Under the pieces are notes generated by a model. That model had not been told where the DNA came from. It did no database searches and saw only the letters and a program-made list of their open reading frames with translations. A DNA stretch of 40,523 bases from a virus: IMG/VR virus record IMGVR_UViG_3300044960_000842, positions 1 through 40,523 of that record. One strand, given 5' to 3'. Both the position numbers and the translations under genes were made by a program. Shown piece by piece: positions 2,020 through 40,111 of the stretch (position 1 is the first letter of the stretch; every line of letters starts with the position of its first letter).

Positions 2020-2355
2020 ATGCAAGCGCCAAGGACGCTCGGCCAGGCGATCAGGGAGGCCCGCAAGGCGCTGGGCCTGACGCAGCAGGAGCTGTGCATG
2101 CGGGTGGTGACCGGGAAGGACACGCCCATGGCGAACAGCTACATGTCGGAGATTGAGCACGACTTCCGCACCCCGAAGTCGCAGAAGACGATCCGATCGA
2201 TCGCCGCGGCGCTTAACGAAGAGCCGGACTACCTGCTCTTTCTCTCCGGCAAGATCCCCGAAGACATTCGCGAGATGGTCGCGGACCGGGAGACCGTGAT
2301 CCAGGCGCTGCGCGTGTTCCGGCAGACCATCGCCAGCAACGGAGAGCTGCCATGA
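2020..2355 (+). CDS. XRE-family helix-turn-helix regulator
   Basis: A 111-aa protein with an N-terminal Cro/CI-type HTH: TLGQAIREARKALGLTQQEL, then a turn region, YMSEIE and a P.......I..IA.AL pattern ending near residue 70. The C-terminal tail is short and helical and shows no peptidase-type CI domain, so it is not a self-cleaving LexA-like repressor. ATG at 2020 follows GAGAGGG, and an overlapping TTG at 2017 is possible. It overlaps the next gene by ATGA. As the first gene of the lysis-side block it could control that block or act as a Cro-like switch protein. Confidence 0.85.
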   Translation: MQAPRTLGQAIREARKALGLTQQELCMRVVTGKDTPMANSYMSEIEHDFRTPKSQKTIRSIAAALNEEPDYLLFLSGKIPEDIREMVADRETVIQALRVFRQTIASNGELP

Positions 2356-3044
2356 CGACGCCGGGCGCCGGCCTGCAGCGGTACTTCGCCAACTGGAGGG
2401 ACGTGCCGCCGGAGCGGTGGCGCTGGCGGAATTTCTCGCCCGCCGAGATCGCTTGCAGAGGGAGCGGGTCGATCCTCATCGACGACGACGCGCTCGACAA
2501 GCTGCAGGCGCTGCGGGATCGGCTCAACAAGCCGCTCATCGTGATTTCCGGCTACCGGTCCAGGGAGCACAACCGGGAGGTCGGAGGAGCCAAGCACTCC
2601 AAGCACATGGACGGCACCGCCTTCGATATCTCGATGGCGAACCACGACCCGGCGGCGTTCGAGGCGGCCGCCCGAGCGGTCGGCTTCCGTGGCTTCGGTT
2701 TCTATCCGCGCTCCGGCTTCATGCACATCGACACCGGGCCGGCCAGACAGTGGGGAGAGCGCTTCCCGCCGCGCGAGACCGCCTTCGCGCCCGAGCCGCC
2801 GCGCGCGCGAGAGACGCTGGCCGAGAGCCGCACACTGAAGGGGGCCGGCGTTGCGGGCGTGGCGACGGCCGGGCTTGCTGGGCTCGACGCTGTGCAGGGA
2901 GCGCTCGCCGACGCGCAGTCCTCCATCCTGCCGCTGCTCCCGTACGTGGAATCCCTGCGCTGGGCGCTGTTCGCGCTGGTCCTGGCCGGCGTGGCGGTCA
3001 CCGTCTACGCACGGATCGACGACTGGAAGCGGGGACGCCGGTGA
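2352..3044 (+). CDS. M15-family D,D-peptidase with C-terminal membrane anchor (endolysin candidate)
   Basis: A 230-aa protein. The N-terminal 135 residues form a Peptidase_M15-type domain. SGYRS (66-70) is followed by the zinc-ligand pattern KHMDGTAFD (H85, D92) and by GFMHIDTG (H125), as in phage and VanX/DacA-like D-Ala-D-Ala peptidases. After a Pro-rich linker, residues about 203-221 form one transmembrane helix ending in a basic tail. The expected role is cutting peptide stems of peptidoglycan during lysis. The membrane tail is unusual and suggests tethering to the inner membrane before release. It starts by ATGA overlap with the regulator and ends by GTGA overlap with the inner spanin. 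Confidence 0.85.
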   Translation: MTTPGAGLQRYFANWRDVPPERWRWRNFSPAEIACRGSGSILIDDDALDKLQALRDRLNKPLIVISGYRSREHNREVGGAKHSKHMDGTAFDISMANHDPAAFEAAARAVGFRGFGFYPRSGFMHIDTGPARQWGERFPPRETAFAPEPPRARETLAESRTLKGAGVAGVATAGLAGLDAVQGALADAQSSILPLLPYVESLRWALFALVLAGVAVTVYARIDDWKRGRR

Positions 3045-3301
3045 TCGGCGCGCTGCTCGGCTGGGCCGCGTCCAGCGCGTGGCTGCGCACTGCCTTGCGG
3101 TACGCGAGCATGGCGATGGCCGTTCTGCTGTTTTTGCTGATGTTTCGCCGGTCTGGCGAGCGTACGGCCCGGATGGCGGAGCGCCTCGAAGCTGAGGAGA
3201 AAGCCAATGCCGTTCAGCGGAAGATGCTCAACGCTGCTGCAAATCACCGCCCTCGCGACCGCGACGATCTTGTCCGCCGGCTGCGCGAGGGTGGGTTCTG
3301 A
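3041..3301 (+). CDS. Rz-like inner-membrane spanin
   Basis: An 86-aa protein starting at GTG 3041, overlapping the peptidase stop (GTGA). The N-terminus carries one membrane helix (about residues 18-38, AMAVLLFLLMF), followed by a charged helical region (RTARMAERLEAEEKANAVQRK) suited to a periplasmic coiled coil. The outer-membrane partner starts inside this gene in another frame, the classic Rz/Rz1 layout. Such pairs fuse inner and outer membranes in the final step of lysis of Gram-negative hosts. Confidence 0.75.
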   Translation: MIGALLGWAASSAWLRTALRYASMAMAVLLFLLMFRRSGERTARMAERLEAEEKANAVQRKMLNAAANHRPRDRDDLVRRLREGGF

Positions 3302-3464
3302 GCCGGCCACGGTCGTCTGCCCGCCCGTGGCCGAGTACGGCAGGGACTTCCAGGCCCGCGCTGCCGACGAGGTGGCCCTGCTGCCCGACGGGTCGGCAAT
3401 CGTGGAGATGCTGCAGGACTACGCGGTGATGCGGGCGCAGGCGCGTGCGTGCTCGCGCGGGTGA
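3207..3464 (+). CDS. Rz1-like outer-membrane spanin lipoprotein
   Basis: An 85-aa protein starting at ATG 3207 within the inner-spanin gene, with GAGGAG upstream. A hydrophobic signal peptide ends in the lipobox LSAGC (Cys at about residue 26), predicting an acylated, outer-membrane-anchored mature protein of about 60 residues. Overlap with the Rz-like gene in a shifted frame supports the spanin call. The mature part is less Pro-rich than the lambda Rz1. Confidence 0.75.
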   Translation: MPFSGRCSTLLQITALATATILSAGCARVGSEPATVVCPPVAEYGRDFQARAADEVALLPDGSAIVEMLQDYAVMRAQARACSRG

Positions 3465-3483: not shown

Positions 3484-3744
3484 ATGCTGAAACGGCTTGC
3501 AACTTACCTGCGCGTGGACGAGCCGCTTCCGCTCGCCGGGCAGATCGTGGTCCGCGCGATGGTGCTGGCGTTCGCGTTCTTCGCGCTGGTGATTCACGTC
3601 AAGGGCGCGCTTCGCGCCGACTCGCTGTTCTGGCTCGCGCTGCACGGCTTCTCGGCCAGCTGTGCGGTGGCGATCATGTTCCTGTTCATCGCCGCCCCCC
3701 CTTCGCGATCCACCGCGCTCTGCCCAGCGCGGAGAGGCCCATGA
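3484..3744 (+). CDS. Small two-TM membrane protein (holin candidate or channel accessory)
   Basis: An 86-aa protein with two predicted membrane helices (about 22-38 and 47-70), a short basic N-terminus (MLKRLATYLR) and a polar C-terminal tail. Size and place beside the peptidase and spanins would suit a class II holin. It also overlaps the MotA/TolQ-like gene by 4 bp (ATGA), so it may belong to that complex instead. No family was recognised. Confidence 0.6.
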   Translation: MLKRLATYLRVDEPLPLAGQIVVRAMVLAFAFFALVIHVKGALRADSLFWLALHGFSASCAVAIMFLFIAAPPSRSTALCPARRGP

Positions 3745-4370
3745 GCGGCGAGGGGCAGCGCAGCCTGCTCCTGCTCCGCTTCGCCCTGCTCAACATCGTA
3801 GCATCCTCGCTGCTCGGTGCGGCTTGGATGCAGGGCTGGCTGGACGAGCTGGTGCGCACCGACACCACCCATCTGTGCGCGATCATCGGCCTGGTATTCC
3901 TCGCCGGCCTCATCCAGGCCGGGCGGCGCGTGGTGCAGACCAGCTTGGAGCTGAACGAGGTTCGGCTCGACACCGGCCGGTCGCCGATCAGCGCGCTGAT
4001 CTGGAAGATGCAATGCACCGACCCCGATGGTAGGGCCGCTTTGGTCGCGCTGCTCCGTCTGCGCCTAGGCAACCGCATCGCTGGTGTGCGCCACGTCGCC
4101 AACACCCTGGTGCTGCTCGGGCTGATCGGCACGGTGATCGGCTTCATCATCGCCCTGTCCGGCGTCGATGCGACGGCGGCGGGCGACGTGGAAGCCATCG
4201 GACCGATGGTGTCCCGGCTGGTCGCCGGCATGTCCGTGGCGCTCTACACCACGCTCGCTGGGTCGGTGCTGAACATCTGGCTGATGCTCAACTATCGCCT
4301 GCTGGAAGCCGGCACGGTGAAGCTGTTCACGGCCATCGTTGAGCGGGCGGAAGCCGATGGACGGCCTTGA
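3741..4370 (+). CDS. MotA/TolQ/ExbB-family proton-channel protein
   Basis: A 209-aa protein with four likely membrane segments (about 11-31, 44-61, 118-140, 161-184) and a cytoplasmic loop between the second and third. Segment 3 reads LLGLIGTVIGFI and segment 4 reads MSVALYTTLAGSVLNI. These are the hallmark TolQ/ExbB/MotA motifs, with the conserved Thr residues (T131, T171) that line the ion path. Family members form pentamers around two single-TM partners and convert proton or sodium flow into movement. The next gene supplies a one-TM partner with an Asp at the helix start. Finding such a pair inside a phage lysis block is unusual. It could serve lysis, membrane de-energisation, superinfection exclusion or defence. 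Confidence 0.75.
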   Translation: MSGEGQRSLLLLRFALLNIVASSLLGAAWMQGWLDELVRTDTTHLCAIIGLVFLAGLIQAGRRVVQTSLELNEVRLDTGRSPISALIWKMQCTDPDGRAALVALLRLRLGNRIAGVRHVANTLVLLGLIGTVIGFIIALSGVDATAAGDVEAIGPMVSRLVAGMSVALYTTLAGSVLNIWLMLNYRLLEAGTVKLFTAIVERAEADGRP

Positions 4371-4965
4371 CCTGCGCGACGACGGCGACGACACGGGCAC
4401 GGTCTTCCGTGACGTGATCGCCTTGGCACTGGCCGGCTTCGTCGCCATCGTCATCCTTCTCCTGCCGCATATCAATCCGCCTGGCAGCAAGACCGCCGAC
4501 GGGATGGAGCCGCCGGGCAACGTCATCGTCGAGATACGCTGGCCGGACGAGCTGGACACGGACGTCGACCTGTGGGTCGAGGGGCCGGGCGACGTGCCGG
4601 TCGGTTACTCCAACAAGGGCGGCAAGCTGTTCAACCTGCTCCGCGACGATCTCGGCCGCCGCCACGACGCGACCGACCTTAACTACGAGGTGAGCTACTC
4701 GCGCGGCATCGTCGCCGGCGAGTACGTCGTCAACGTGCACCTCTACCGCAATCTATCGCGGCAGCTCCCCATCCCTGTCCGGGTCGTGGTCAGCACGAAG
4801 CGGTCGCGTGATCAGGGCGCGCGGCAGATACTGACGAGCGACGTTGAGCTGAAGCATGAAGGGCACGAGCTCACCGTCTTCCGGTTTCGCCTGGATGAGC
4901 ACGGCGACATACGGCCCGGCAGCGTCGGGAACCTTAACAAGCCGTTGCGCGCATGGAGACCGTGA
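4357..4965 (+). CDS. One-TM partner with periplasmic DUF2135/YfaP-like domain
   Basis: A 202-aa protein overlapping the channel gene by 14 bp. The short acidic N-terminus is followed by one membrane helix (about 18-37) beginning FRDVIALALAGF. The Asp at residue 19 is placed like the proton-carrying Asp of MotB, ExbD and TolR. The periplasmic part includes IRWPDELDTDVDLWVEGP (59-78), the signature of DUF2135/YfaP-like beta-sandwich domains, and YVVNVHLYRN at about 123-132. It has no OmpA-like peptidoglycan-binding domain, so it differs from MotB and ZorB. I infer a 5:2-type motor with the previous protein. Confidence 0.6.
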   Translation: MDGLDLRDDGDDTGTVFRDVIALALAGFVAIVILLLPHINPPGSKTADGMEPPGNVIVEIRWPDELDTDVDLWVEGPGDVPVGYSNKGGKLFNLLRDDLGRRHDATDLNYEVSYSRGIVAGEYVVNVHLYRNLSRQLPIPVRVVVSTKRSRDQGARQILTSDVELKHEGHELTVFRFRLDEHGDIRPGSVGNLNKPLRAWRP

Positions 4966-5474
4966 TGCCCGGGAGCCTGCCCATGCTGTTCGCGGCCGCA
5001 GCCGTGCTTGCCGCCTTCCTCGGCAGCATCGCTGTCTGGTCGCCACGACGGCTGCCGGTGAAGGTCTGCGCGCTCATCGTCGCCGGGCTGTTCATGCCGC
5101 TGGCCTATGCCGGCCTCAGCGACCTGCTCAGCCGTCCCAAGCCGATCAGCATGGAATGGTGGTTGGCGCACGCCGACGAAGCGACCGTGCTCGCCGCCGT
5201 CCCCGAGGAAGGGCGGCGTATCTTCCTTTGGCTTGCGCTGGAAGGTGCCGACGAGCCGCGCGCCTACGTCATGCCTTGGACCCGCGAGGCGGCGCAGCAG
5301 TTGCAGGACGCGCAGGAACAGGCGGCCCAGGAAGGCGGCGAGGTGCGCATGCAGATGCCGTTCGAGCGGTCGCTGGAGGATGCAGAAAGGATGTTCTACC
5401 CGGTCCCGCAGCCGGCTCCGCCTGCCAAGCCTGAGGAGGGCGAGCCCGTGGTGCGGTACGAGGGCGCCAGGTGA
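4965..5474 (+). CDS. Two-TM protein with soluble C-terminal domain, channel-module member
   Basis: A 169-aa protein. The ATG at 4965 shares a base with the previous stop (TGATG) and has GGAGA upstream. The ATG at 4953 is in frame but lacks a ribosome site. Two hydrophobic helices (7-25, 34-54) precede a soluble domain of about 100 residues rich in Glu and Gln, then a Pro-rich tail (PVPQPAPPAKP). No family was recognised. Tight coupling on both sides says it works with the MotA/TolQ-like module. Confidence 0.65.
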   Translation: MPGSLPMLFAAAAVLAAFLGSIAVWSPRRLPVKVCALIVAGLFMPLAYAGLSDLLSRPKPISMEWWLAHADEATVLAAVPEEGRRIFLWLALEGADEPRAYVMPWTREAAQQLQDAQEQAAQEGGEVRMQMPFERSLEDAERMFYPVPQPAPPAKPEEGEPVVRYEGAR

Positions 5475-5995
5475 CGCACGCGCCCGACGAGCAGTCGCTT
5501 CGCCAGTGGGCGCTCGACCGCCTGCAGGCGGACGGGAACACGCTGATGTGGATCGGGTCGGACGCCGACCGGGCGGGCGGCACGCCGGACCTGGTGCTGG
5601 TCACCGGCCGGCGGACCGTGTTCCTGCAGCTGAGCATGGCGAGCTGGCGGCGGGTCGGGAGCTTCCTGGTCTGTCCGGCGATTGCCGTGCGCCACCCGCA
5701 GAAGCGCTGGCATCGCGAGGCCGCCTATGCCGGTCTGCTGTCGGGCTTCATGGTCGGTCTGGCACCGCCGCCGCAGCTGACGCCGCCCGACGCGGTGGCC
5801 TGCTTCACCCGGCCGGACGGGCGCGCGGCCACTCTGTGGAACAGTGGCAGGATGTCGGTCGCCATGCTGTCGTCGGCACAGTACCGGCGCTGGGCGATCT
5901 CTGGCAGTCTGCCGTCCTTCGCCGTCGTCGACTCGTGGCCGGACGTGCGGTCGGTGATCGGCCAGTGGATCGCCGACGTTGAACTGGCGGCTTGA
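5471..5995 (+). CDS. Unknown protein, resembling a degenerate VRR-NUC/PD-(D/E)XK fold
   Basis: A 174-aa protein starting at GTG 5471 by GTGA overlap. Residues about 36-58 (GGTPDLVLVTGRRTVFLQLS) look like the core of VRR-NUC nucleases, where PDLvLv..gr.vFLELK carries the catalytic Asp and ExK. Here the Glu and Lys positions are Gln and Ser, so the site would be inactive. The rest is unfamiliar, with a moderately hydrophobic stretch at about 92-105. The similarity is a visual motif match and could be chance. Confidence 0.6.
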   Translation: MTHAPDEQSLRQWALDRLQADGNTLMWIGSDADRAGGTPDLVLVTGRRTVFLQLSMASWRRVGSFLVCPAIAVRHPQKRWHREAAYAGLLSGFMVGLAPPPQLTPPDAVACFTRPDGRAATLWNSGRMSVAMLSSAQYRRWAISGSLPSFAVVDSWPDVRSVIGQWIADVELAA

Positions 5996-37680: not shown

Positions 37681-38142
37681 CTAGAACGGGATGTCGTCGT
37701 CGAGGTCGTCAGCCGGGCGCCCGCGCTGTGCCGGCGCGGCGCGGTCGTCGGAGCCGCGCGTCGGCTCGCCGCCGTACTCGTCGGCGCCGGTCCGCCCGGA
37801 GCCGGAGTCGCCGAGGAGCACCAGCTCGCCACGGCCGCGCGACAGGACGATCTCGGTGCGCTGGCGCTCGCCGCCGCCCTGGTCCGTCCACTTCCGCGTC
37901 TGCAGCTGGCCCTCCAGGAAGACCAGCCGTCCCTTGCGCAGATAGCGCTCGGCGACATCGGCCAGGCGTTCGTGGAAGATCACCACGCTGTGCCACTCGG
38001 TGCGCTCCTGCCGCTCGCCCGCCGCGTCCTTCCACCTCTCGGTCGTGGCGACCGTGAGCGACACCACCTTCTGGTTCGCCTGCGTGTACCGGACCACCGG
38101 GTCCTTCCCCAGGCGTCCCAGCAGCGTGACCCTGCAGTACAT
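37681..38142 (-). CDS. ssb: Single-stranded DNA-binding protein
   Basis: A 153-aa protein from ATG 38142 (TGATG overlap with the annealing-protein stop, GGAGG upstream). The OB fold shows CRVTLLGRLGKDPVVRYTQA, then WHSVVIFHERLADVAERYLR and LVFLEGQLQTRKWTDQ. After a Gly/Arg-rich linker it ends DDDIPF, the acidic tip by which SSB proteins recruit replication partners. It works with the exonuclease and annealing protein encoded just upstream. Confidence 0.95.
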   Translation of the reverse strand: MYCRVTLLGRLGKDPVVRYTQANQKVVSLTVATTERWKDAAGERQERTEWHSVVIFHERLADVAERYLRKGRLVFLEGQLQTRKWTDQGGGERQRTEIVLSRGRGELVLLGDSGSGRTGADEYGGEPTRGSDDRAAPAQRGRPADDLDDDIPF

Positions 38143-38891
38143 CACCCATCCTCCGTCCTGGTCGCGTTCAGCTCGGCCGCGCGGGCCCGCGCAGCCTCGG
38201 TCAGTCGACGGCACAGCTCCGGCTCGTCCGCCCGCAGGATGGCGAGCAGCGAGCGCGGCGGCTTGCCGTACCGGACGCTCAGCGCAGACCGCAGCACCGC
38301 CAGATCCTCCTCGCCCATGCCGGGGATCAGCGGCAGACGCTCGCGAATGTAGTCGATCGCGCCCTGCGTGATCTCGTCCGCCGGCGCGGTCGGCTTCCGT
38401 GCGGCAGGCTTCGGCTCCTGGTTCCCGGCGACGTAGCGATTGTCCGTGAAGTCATCCATCCAGATGTCGGCGGACGCGCCCAGCACCGACATGCCCTTGC
38501 TCAGAGCGTCCGTGAGCGACTTCTTCGGCGCGTCGGAGTCGACGACCCGCCGCCCGTTGCGCGCGACGAAGCTGAACGGCGTGCAGCCGAAGGTCTCCCA
38601 GTGACCGAAGCTGCCGTCGTCCAGGCGCCGCCAGAAGCGCACGTGCAGCACGTGGACGACGTCGGGCGGACCGTCCGCAGAGTCCGCAGGCGCATCCCTG
38701 TAGTACTCGTTCAGCACCTTCCAGCCCCAGCCGACGCCGACCGGGCCCAGCTGCTCGGTGACCCTCTTGACGTTGTAGATGGCCGAGACGGCCGTCCCCT
38801 GGAAGCCACCGGACCCGCCGAACGTTCGGGTGTACTTCGGGTCCGTCTTCTCCAGCGCCTCCCATTCCTTCAGGTTATTCTTCCAACTCAC
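38142..38891 (-). CDS. Rad52-like single-strand annealing recombinase
   Basis: A 249-aa protein from GTG 38891, with GGAGG 6-7 bases upstream, starting 17 bp inside the exonuclease gene. EALEKTDPKYTRTFGGSGGF, YNVKRVTEQLGPVGVGWGW and KKSLTDALSKGMSVLGASAD have the layout of phage Rad52/Sak-type annealing proteins. Position between a lambda-type exonuclease and SSB strongly supports this. A linker and a helical C-terminal domain follow from about residue 170. The exact subfamily is not certain. Confidence 0.75.
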   Translation of the reverse strand: MSWKNNLKEWEALEKTDPKYTRTFGGSGGFQGTAVSAIYNVKRVTEQLGPVGVGWGWKVLNEYYRDAPADSADGPPDVVHVLHVRFWRRLDDGSFGHWETFGCTPFSFVARNGRRVVDSDAPKKSLTDALSKGMSVLGASADIWMDDFTDNRYVAGNQEPKPAARKPTAPADEITQGAIDYIRERLPLIPGMGEEDLAVLRSALSVRYGKPPRSLLAILRADEPELCRRLTEAARARAAELNATRTEDG

Positions 38892-39543
38892 CGAACACCT
38901 CCATCGTGCTGAGGTACAGGTCGAGCGCGGCCCGCACCCGCCGCGCGCCCACCACGATCGGCCGGTGCTCGATGTACACCGGGTCGCGGTCGTCCGGCAT
39001 GACGTCCATCGCCAGGTAGCCGAGAAACTCTTCGGCGAGTTCCCGCAGCGCATCGATGCCGGCCGGGTCGGCCGGAAGCCATGCGACCGTGTGTCGCGGG
39101 CCTGGGTCGATCACGCCGAGCACGCAGCCGGGCGCGTCCCACAGGTCGCAGTAGACCATCGCCTGCGGCCAGTGGAGCTCGCGGAACGCCTCGATGCCGG
39201 ACTGCCCGGTGTACTTCGCCTCGAACGGAATGCGGCCGGCTATGCACCCGTCCGGCCGCCCGCGCCACAGGCCGGGCCGCACCCACAGGACGCCGCGCTC
39301 GTCCTGGGTCGCGATCCCGACGCCATCGGGAGCGCGCTCCCAGATCGGCAGACCCAGCGCCTGGCCGGACCAGGCCCGGTTCAGCGGCTCGGTCACGATC
39401 CCCATCTGGACGGCCAGCGCCCGGTCGAGGTCGGGCCGCTCGATCAGGCCTTTCCGCCGCAACCAGGCGTCCCGCCATCGTCCCGCGCACAGGTCGCGCA
39501 GATCCGATGCGGCGATCTCGGCCTGGTGCCTTGGTTGCGGCAT
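38875..39543 (-). CDS. Lambda-exonuclease/YqaJ-family recombination nuclease
   Basis: A 222-aa protein with GAGGAG before ATG 39543. LCAGRWRDAWLRRKGL, QMGIVTEPLNRAW (E52), RPDGCIAG (D98), FEAKYTG (E108, K110) and HWPQAMVY (Q127) are the YqaJ/lambda Exo motifs of the PD-(D/E)XK fold. It should digest 5' ends to give 3' tails for the annealing protein. First gene of the leftward recombination operon. The leader contains a strong hairpin. Confidence 0.88.
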   Translation of the reverse strand: MPQPRHQAEIAASDLRDLCAGRWRDAWLRRKGLIERPDLDRALAVQMGIVTEPLNRAWSGQALGLPIWERAPDGVGIATQDERGVLWVRPGLWRGRPDGCIAGRIPFEAKYTGQSGIEAFRELHWPQAMVYCDLWDAPGCVLGVIDPGPRHTVAWLPADPAGIDALRELAEEFLGYLAMDVMPDDRDPVYIEHRPIVVGARRVRAALDLYLSTMEVFGELEE

Positions 39544-39558
39544 GGCTCCTCGAAAAGA

Positions 39559-39584
39559 CCCCCGTGCACCGAAGCGCACGGGGG
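39559..39584 (-). promoter_or_regulatory. Leader hairpin before the exonuclease gene
   Basis: A perfect 9-bp stem (39559-39567 with 39576-39584, 8-base loop). In leftward reading it is followed by TCTTTTCGAGGAGCC and the start codon. It resembles an attenuator or weak terminator just ahead of the ribosome site. Confidence 0.55.
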
Positions 39585-39639
39585 CAGCCTGCGTCTGGGA
39601 GATCAAGGAGGTGCCGAAGACGCGCGCCGAAGAACCGGC

Positions 39640-39667
39640 TTGCGTCCAGAGGCAGGGCCACCATACT
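39640..39667 (+). promoter_or_regulatory. Rightward promoter candidate for the replication operon
   Basis: TTGCGT (39640-39645), 16-bp spacer, CATACT (39662-39667). Its -10 overlaps that of the leftward promoter. It would serve the DUF1064 gene and, across the circle junction, the initiator gene. Confidence 0.4.
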
Positions 39668-39687
39668 GGGCGTCCTCGCAGCGTCAA
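39660..39687 (-). promoter_or_regulatory. Leftward promoter of the exonuclease operon
   Basis: Minus strand TTGACG (39687-39682), 16-bp spacer, TATGGT (39665-39660). The run TTGACGCTGCG equals that before the XRE gene at 1955. Confidence 0.5.
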
Positions 39688-39715
39688 CCCCTGCAGGGAG
39701 CGCGCCCGCAGCCGC

Positions 39716-40111
39716 ATGACGATCCGCACGCGCATGTCCGCTGCACAGTACCGGGCCCGCGTGCTCGGGACCGCGAAATACCGCGCCGTGGCGGAGGAAG
39801 GCCCGGACGGTGCGGGCGGACGCCGGATCTATCGCTCGAAGCTGGAAGCCAGGCTCGCGCGCCACCTCGACTCCCTGCGCCAGGCGGGCGAGATCGTCGC
39901 CCACATCCCCGAGGTCTCGCTGCCGGTGGGGAAGCTCGGCGCGAAGATCGTGCGCCATGTCGTCGACCAGATGGCCATCATCGAGGTCCGCGACGATGGC
40001 AGCTTCGTCGCCCGCTTCTGCGAGGCGAAGGGCTTTGACACGCCGACGGGCAAGCGCAAGCGCAAGGCGGTGCAGGAAGCCTACGGGATCAAGATCGACG
40101 TCATTCGCTAG
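39716..40111 (+). CDS. DUF1064 PD-(D/E)XK nuclease
   Basis: A 131-aa protein. ATG at 39716 was chosen because the frame upstream is not protein-like and crosses the promoter region. YRSKLEARLARHLD (E44), HVVDQMAII (D84) and FCEAKGFDT (E103, K105) are the DUF1064 catalytic pattern, and KRKRKAVQEAYGIKI is the usual basic end. The family is thought to act on phage DNA branches or ends, resolvase-like. First gene of the rightward replication operon. Confidence 0.85.
   Translation: MTIRTRMSAAQYRARVLGTAKYRAVAEEGPDGAGGRRIYRSKLEARLARHLDSLRQAGEIVAHIPEVSLPVGKLGAKIVRHVVDQMAIIEVRDDGSFVARFCEAKGFDTPTGKRKRKAVQEAYGIKIDVIR

Follow-up and report, generated by a model that had tools for sequence, protein, structure and literature searches.

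A conserved B-C-D cassette of phages and Alphaproteobacteria encoding a MotA/TolQ/ExbB-family subunit and a putative proton-driven motor unit

The DNA analysed here, hereafter called the window, is the IMG/VR virus record IMGVR_UViG_3300044960_000842 with a length of 40,523 bases. The large terminase of this phage shares 65% identity with that of Rhodobacter siphophages, e.g. RcBaka, and recombination genes of SSB-like, Erf/Rad52-like and YqaJ-like appearance were recognised by eye from the translations at positions 37681-39735. A lysis block, made up of an endolysin gene and an overlapping inner/outer spanin pair, occupies positions 2352-3464, and five overlapping genes, here termed A to E, follow downstream of it at positions 3484-5995 (Table 1). 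An earlier, sequence-only reading of this stretch had listed five open reading frames, all coupled by overlaps. All five were found where that reading had placed them, and its statement on coupling is correct since A/B, B/C, C/D and D/E overlap by 4, 14, 1 (TGATG) and 4 bp, respectively.

Table 1. Positions of the lysis genes and of genes A to E in the window (TM, transmembrane)
Feature	Position	Strand	Basis and remarks
M15-type peptidase (endolysin) with C-terminal TM helix	2352..3044	+	Pfam Peptidase_M15_3 4e-28; phrog_17373 2e-97; TM helix by hydropathy; first gene of the lysis block
Inner-membrane spanin-like protein	3041..3301	+	phrog_27122 6e-23; one TM helix
Outer-membrane spanin-like lipoprotein	3207..3464	+	phrog_26778 8e-21; lipobox LSAGC; overlaps the inner spanin gene
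Gene A, 86 aa, two TM helices, probable holin, outside the conserved module	3484..3744	+	Sequence and hydropathy; overlaps B by 4 bp
Gene B, 209 aa, four TM helices, MotA/TolQ/ExbB-family channel subunit	3741..4370	+	Pfam PF01618; motifs in TM3 and TM4
Gene C, 202 aa, one TM helix with Asp19 and periplasmic beta-sandwich	4357..4965	+	Homologue alignment; AlphaFold
Gene D, 169 aa, two TM helices, basic loop, beta-beta-beta-alpha domain and tail	4965..5474	+	AlphaFold; kept after C
Gene E, 174 aa, no TM helix, outside the conserved module	5471..5995	+	Overlaps D by 4 bp

The five genes had been regarded as one module; however, the conserved unit consists of the three genes B-C-D, and A and E do not recur. 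Gene A is grouped with the lysis genes and not with the motor module. Its two TM helices were placed by hydropathy at residues 21-39 and 51-69, and as a small protein with two such helices, encoded within the lysis cluster directly after the spanins, it fits the pattern of a class II holin. Profile searches against Pfam and other collections gave neither a family match nor a holin profile match for gene A, and no counterpart was seen in the other cassette loci compared; from its sequence, the protein is probably a holin. The product of gene E, with its 174 residues, is not the small module protein it had been called, and it produced no significant family match and a single weak viral relative.

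With regard to gene B, the motifs GLIGTVIG (residues 127-134, TM3) and ALYTTLAG (residues 167-174, TM4) are presumably the counterparts of helices in TolQ and ExbB with the patterns GLxGTVxG and ALxATAxG, and the C-terminus lies about 30 residues past TM4. The protein matched PF01618 with an E-value of 1.3e-8 and 35.1 bits, above the curated cut-off of 22.9, and 16 of 18 gene B homologues matched this family individually (E≤0.1). When a profile of 70 relatives was compared with the PDB, MotA was the best match (3.8e-10), followed by PomA (1e-5) and by ZorA and TolQ (7e-5 and 5e-4), the two proteins with which a comparison had been suggested. G127, G130, G134, T171 and G174 are invariant among 70 homologues, and T131 is kept in 66 of them. 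Judged by these matches, gene B is a true MotA/TolQ/ExbB-family protein, as the sequence-only reading had proposed. The median length of B is 153 aa in viruses versus 223 aa in bacteria, with many phage copies being much shorter, and the loop between TM2 and TM3 comprises 22 residues in viral but 60 in bacterial copies. Some phage B subunits of about 140-150 aa (e.g. L071:5235-5651) are devoid of most of the cytoplasmic loop; they are among the smallest MotA/ExbB-type proteins seen here and shorter than the MotA, ExbB, TolQ and ZorA chains matched in the PDB.

Gene C had been described as a protein with one TM helix and an Asp at the helix start, and both features were borne out. In the AlphaFold model (pLDDT 89.9) a helix at residues 12-39 is followed by an eight-strand beta-sandwich, and Asp19, located near the inner (cytoplasmic) end of the helix, is invariant in 101 of 101 homologues. 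Charged residues are absent from helix positions 20-39 throughout these sequences, whose invariant positions also include W62, D69, D71, D97, N109 and E111. Searches with the window protein and its homologues (E≤0.1) assigned gene C to no Pfam family, neither ExbD/TolR nor an OmpA-like one. DUF2135 (PF09906), to which the outer domain had been likened, scored 12.1 bits against a Pfam cut-off of 22 and does not figure in the list of families matched by C homologues (E≤0.1), and this assignment was dropped. The model gave no fold match in the PDB at E≤0.001, and ExbD/TolR was absent from the 50 best matches; the best ones were Bacteroides beta-sandwich domains (7e-3 and 1.1e-2), one of them described as calcium-bound. 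In a viral library the fold matches were one unnamed protein (5e-5) and a tellurium-resistance-like protein (1e-3). Taken from sequence and model, the membrane part of gene C has the arrangement of ExbD, TolR and MotB while its outer part is different, so that the claim of a different periplasmic partner was sound: the predicted beta-sandwich has no ExbD, TolR or OmpA-like features. Moreover, this predicted domain may have a metal site, as is suggested by the invariant residues D69, D71, D97, N109 and E111 and by its weak likeness to a calcium-bound beta-sandwich.

Gene D is the second protein for which two membrane helices had been noted, and these were confirmed. An upstream ATG at position 4953 offers an alternative start, and the AlphaFold model (pLDDT 86) was built from position 4968, with the first residue omitted. 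The loop between TM1 and TM2 is net positive in 93 of 96 sequences, and because of this basic loop both ends of the protein are predicted, by the positive-inside rule, to face outside. The outer domain is conserved, and a tail motif of the F/Y-P-P-K type was present in 50 of 55 bacterial copies versus 10 of 40 viral ones. No Pfam family was shared among D proteins, the D profile had no solved relative in the PDB, the model gave no PDB fold match at E≤0.001, and a tblastn search against GenBank phages found none.

When the gene string was looked for elsewhere, B-C-D, but not A and E, was seen to recur in phages and bacteria, and it was intact in nearly all loci fetched (about 75 viral and about 80 bacterial). 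Adjoining C and D genes were present in 54 of the 56 viral loci fetched by gene B alone, the other two stopping at a contig edge, and all 13 viral loci fetched by gene C contained the complete string. The same holds for all eight GenBank Rhizobium or Sinorhizobium phage loci inspected, phage 16-3 included, and 78 of 80 bacterial loci had B, C and D. The viral carriers include small siphophages at one end and T4-like and 316-kb genomes at the other, and comprise both temperate and large lytic phages; in bacteria the distribution is patchy, the operon being present in 60 of 385 sampled alphaproteobacterial genomes and 19 of 399 Pseudomonadota genomes. It is also evident that the module is not specific to phages: B-C-D also exists as a stand-alone chromosomal operon of Alphaproteobacteria, which rules out a phage-only family. 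An explanation of the bacterial copies as prophage remnants was discarded as well, given that no phage gene families were found among the 25 commonest neighbour families listed.

The bacterial copies are surrounded by ordinary metabolic, transport and regulatory (housekeeping) genes, and in some clades their position is conserved although base composition differs strongly between the genomes; a PQQ-type dehydrogenase gene adjoins B-C-D in three genomes. Some bacterial genomes, e.g. in Azospirillum, have the cassette twice, and in this genus it is also found on plasmid-class replicons of 1.7-2 Mb. At least one cassette was present in 21 of 45 Azospirillum genomes, and in four Azospirillum loci (L125, L155, L127 and L149) two cassettes share a replicon at a distance of about 24 kb, the second having a diverged B. 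The neighbours of the viral cassettes are mixed and include replication genes, head-tail genes and genes of no assigned function. In some T4-like marine phages B-C-D looks stably kept, and it may not be accessory in every phage.

As to the origin of the window copy, a quick tree of gene C, in which distant viral rows have long branches, paired the window with the copy of an uncultured alphaproteobacterium as its sister, within a starred bacterial set and apart from the other viral groups. This closest bacterial copy of B-C-D, which comes from a metagenome bin, is 79% identical to the window at the DNA level over positions 3748-5416, and the match stops at both cassette edges. The dN/dS values of 0.20 for B, 0.20 for C and 0.32 for D indicate purifying selection. 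Transfer from host to phage followed by continued selection would be the simplest account of the window cassette, with the direction read from the tree and the alignment. Other phage lineages branch apart in the gene C tree and represent separate copies, and phages have apparently picked up the cassette more than once from alphaproteobacterial chromosomes.

The reading that we favour, with a probability of roughly 0.6, is that B-C-D represents a MotA/TolQ/ExbB-class family of proton-driven motor units which had not been studied before and which acts on the envelope as an accessory rather than as a part of lysis. In the inner membrane, a ring of five B subunits would enclose two C helices, and the protons would travel between C residue Asp19 and the conserved Thr of B. 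This passage may cause C to turn or shift against B, and the beta-sandwich of C together with the outer domain and tail of D would convey the movement to the periplasm, the cell wall or the outer membrane. In the window phage an alphaproteobacterial operon would have entered the genome as accessory cargo, downstream of the lysis block. The cassette could then serve to maintain or modify the envelope of infected or lysogenic cells, with exclusion of other phages as a possible benefit; from topology and homology, an envelope role is the most likely one. The proton-motor proposal of the sequence-only reading was thus upheld in part: the B homologue, the C helix with its invariant Asp and the different partner stand, while the link to lysis and the five-gene extent do not.

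Motors of the 5:2 type comprise the Mot, Exb, Tol, Agl, Gld and Zor families, and B-C-D has features in common with several of them. It shares with TolQR and ExbBD a PF01618 channel subunit with GLxGTVxG and ALxxTxxG helices, a partner that spans the membrane once and has one Asp close to the inner end of its helix, and a further membrane protein that reaches the periplasm (TolA/TonB there, D here). It differs in the beta-sandwich that C carries in place of the ExbD/TolR domain and in the two TM helices of D, and the 25 commonest neighbour families listed include no conspicuous Tol or Ton family. The outer domain of C rules out that ExbBD or TolQR was transferred as such. The MotAB and PomAB stators provided the best structure matches of gene B (MotA 3.8e-10, PomA 1e-5), but C is without the OmpA-like wall-binding domain, the cytoplasmic loop of B is short and there are no flagellar genes nearby. 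As for Zorya, gene B matches ZorA over TM3-TM4, whereas the long ZorA tail, the wall-binding domain of ZorB and ZorC/D/E are missing; ZorC/D/E were found neither in the genes adjacent to the cassette in the window nor among the 25 commonest neighbour families listed. The PADLOC match of gene B to ZorA was weak and covered about 60 of 648 profile positions. Without tail, wall domain or effector genes, membership in Zorya was rejected.

The same B-C-D string is encoded by p038-p040-p042 of Rhizobium phage 16-3, which are annotated without function and whose C is 44% identical to that of the window. It differs from the window copy in a B of 138 aa, in small inserted genes and in a trypsin-like protease gene upstream. 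In the 16-3 genome the cassette occupies 22.6-24.5 kb, with the tail fibre genes before it and int/xis behind it, and is outside the late region. This place falls in a region defined as silent (PMC10460002), not beside lysis genes.

The main rival to an envelope-acting motor is superinfection exclusion or abortive defence, which is possible although we consider it rather unlikely. The motor would here sense or block incoming phage DNA or wall damage, or leak protons, much as Zorya ZorAB and RexB are thought to act. The homology of gene B to ZorA would fit such a function, as would the occurrence of the cassette in temperate and large lytic phages and its patchiness in bacteria. In phage 16-3 the immX immunity genes are found within a few kb of the cassette, which is outside the late region, and in one T4-like phage it is located between rIIA and rIIB. 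However, the rII placement is absent in six relatives, the cassette includes no cytoplasmic effector gene and B no long cytoplasmic tail, and the bacterial copies are not in defence neighbourhoods and, in some clades, have stayed at the same place despite wide divergence. The T4-like contig in question (L008:3433-9418) has the cassette and a trypsin-like protease gene between rIIA and rIIB, which were identified by a PHROG tally and by reading of the sequences; as a single locus, it was not taken to reflect a rule of rII linkage.

The sequence-only reading had connected the genes with lysis, the motor aiding outer-membrane disruption or collapsing the proton gradient and thereby triggering lysis. 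In the window the endolysin, the spanins and the probable holin are indeed adjacent and coupled by overlaps, and no convincing internal promoter or terminator was seen between the lysis genes and the cassette. Since the cassette is translationally coupled to the lysis block, it is likely to be expressed late with the lysis genes in the window phage. However, lysis genes adjoin the cassette in this window only: B, C and D are absent from all 74 viral loci with the window's M15 endolysin, including about 20 in which its spanins are seen as well, and this endolysin and these spanins were not found beside the cassette in the other cassette loci compared. Viral cassettes in general have the mixed neighbours described above, and bacterial chromosomes retain this operon too. 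A motor dedicated to lysis is unlikely because phages with this endolysin and spanins exist without the cassette and because the 16-3 copy is outside the late region. Lysis as the general role was rejected, and we regard an effector function in lysis as improbable.

If B-C-D is an accessory motor unit of the envelope, as we favour, it would add to the known motors a conserved family that is common among Alphaproteobacteria, has a different type of outer domain and includes a third subunit as a fixed part. A survey of the superfamily reports that non-flagellar members carry varied extra domains of unassigned function (mBio 2025; PMC12505986); in the parts of this survey considered here the B-C-D cassette is not described, and phages are mentioned with respect to Zorya defence. 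No paper describing the cassette was found in the open-access literature searched. As a viral tool that works on the cell envelope, a proton-powered motor borne by a virus would be of a new type, and it would bear on how phages handle the energy state and the outer membrane of the host. More tentatively, phages may repeatedly recruit and keep, and in several lineages slim (B of about 140-150 aa), a dedicated proton motor with its own beta-sandwich and third subunit that reshapes the envelope or excludes rivals, a class not described before. Phage 16-3 is a model temperate phage with well-developed genetics, and a knockout is therefore directly possible.

Two further kinds of genes were observed next to the cassette. 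A gene for a periplasmic trypsin-like protease is often beside or near it in Rhizobium phages (L071:4208-5107, and at the same place in L068 and L072-L074); such genes were also seen near the cassette in L075, L008, L130 and L181, with three in a row in L181, and a functional link between protease and cassette is possible. In two bacterial genomes a similar-looking lipoprotein gene directly follows D (L171:8776-9516 and L173:5723-6418), and its product is a possible fourth component.
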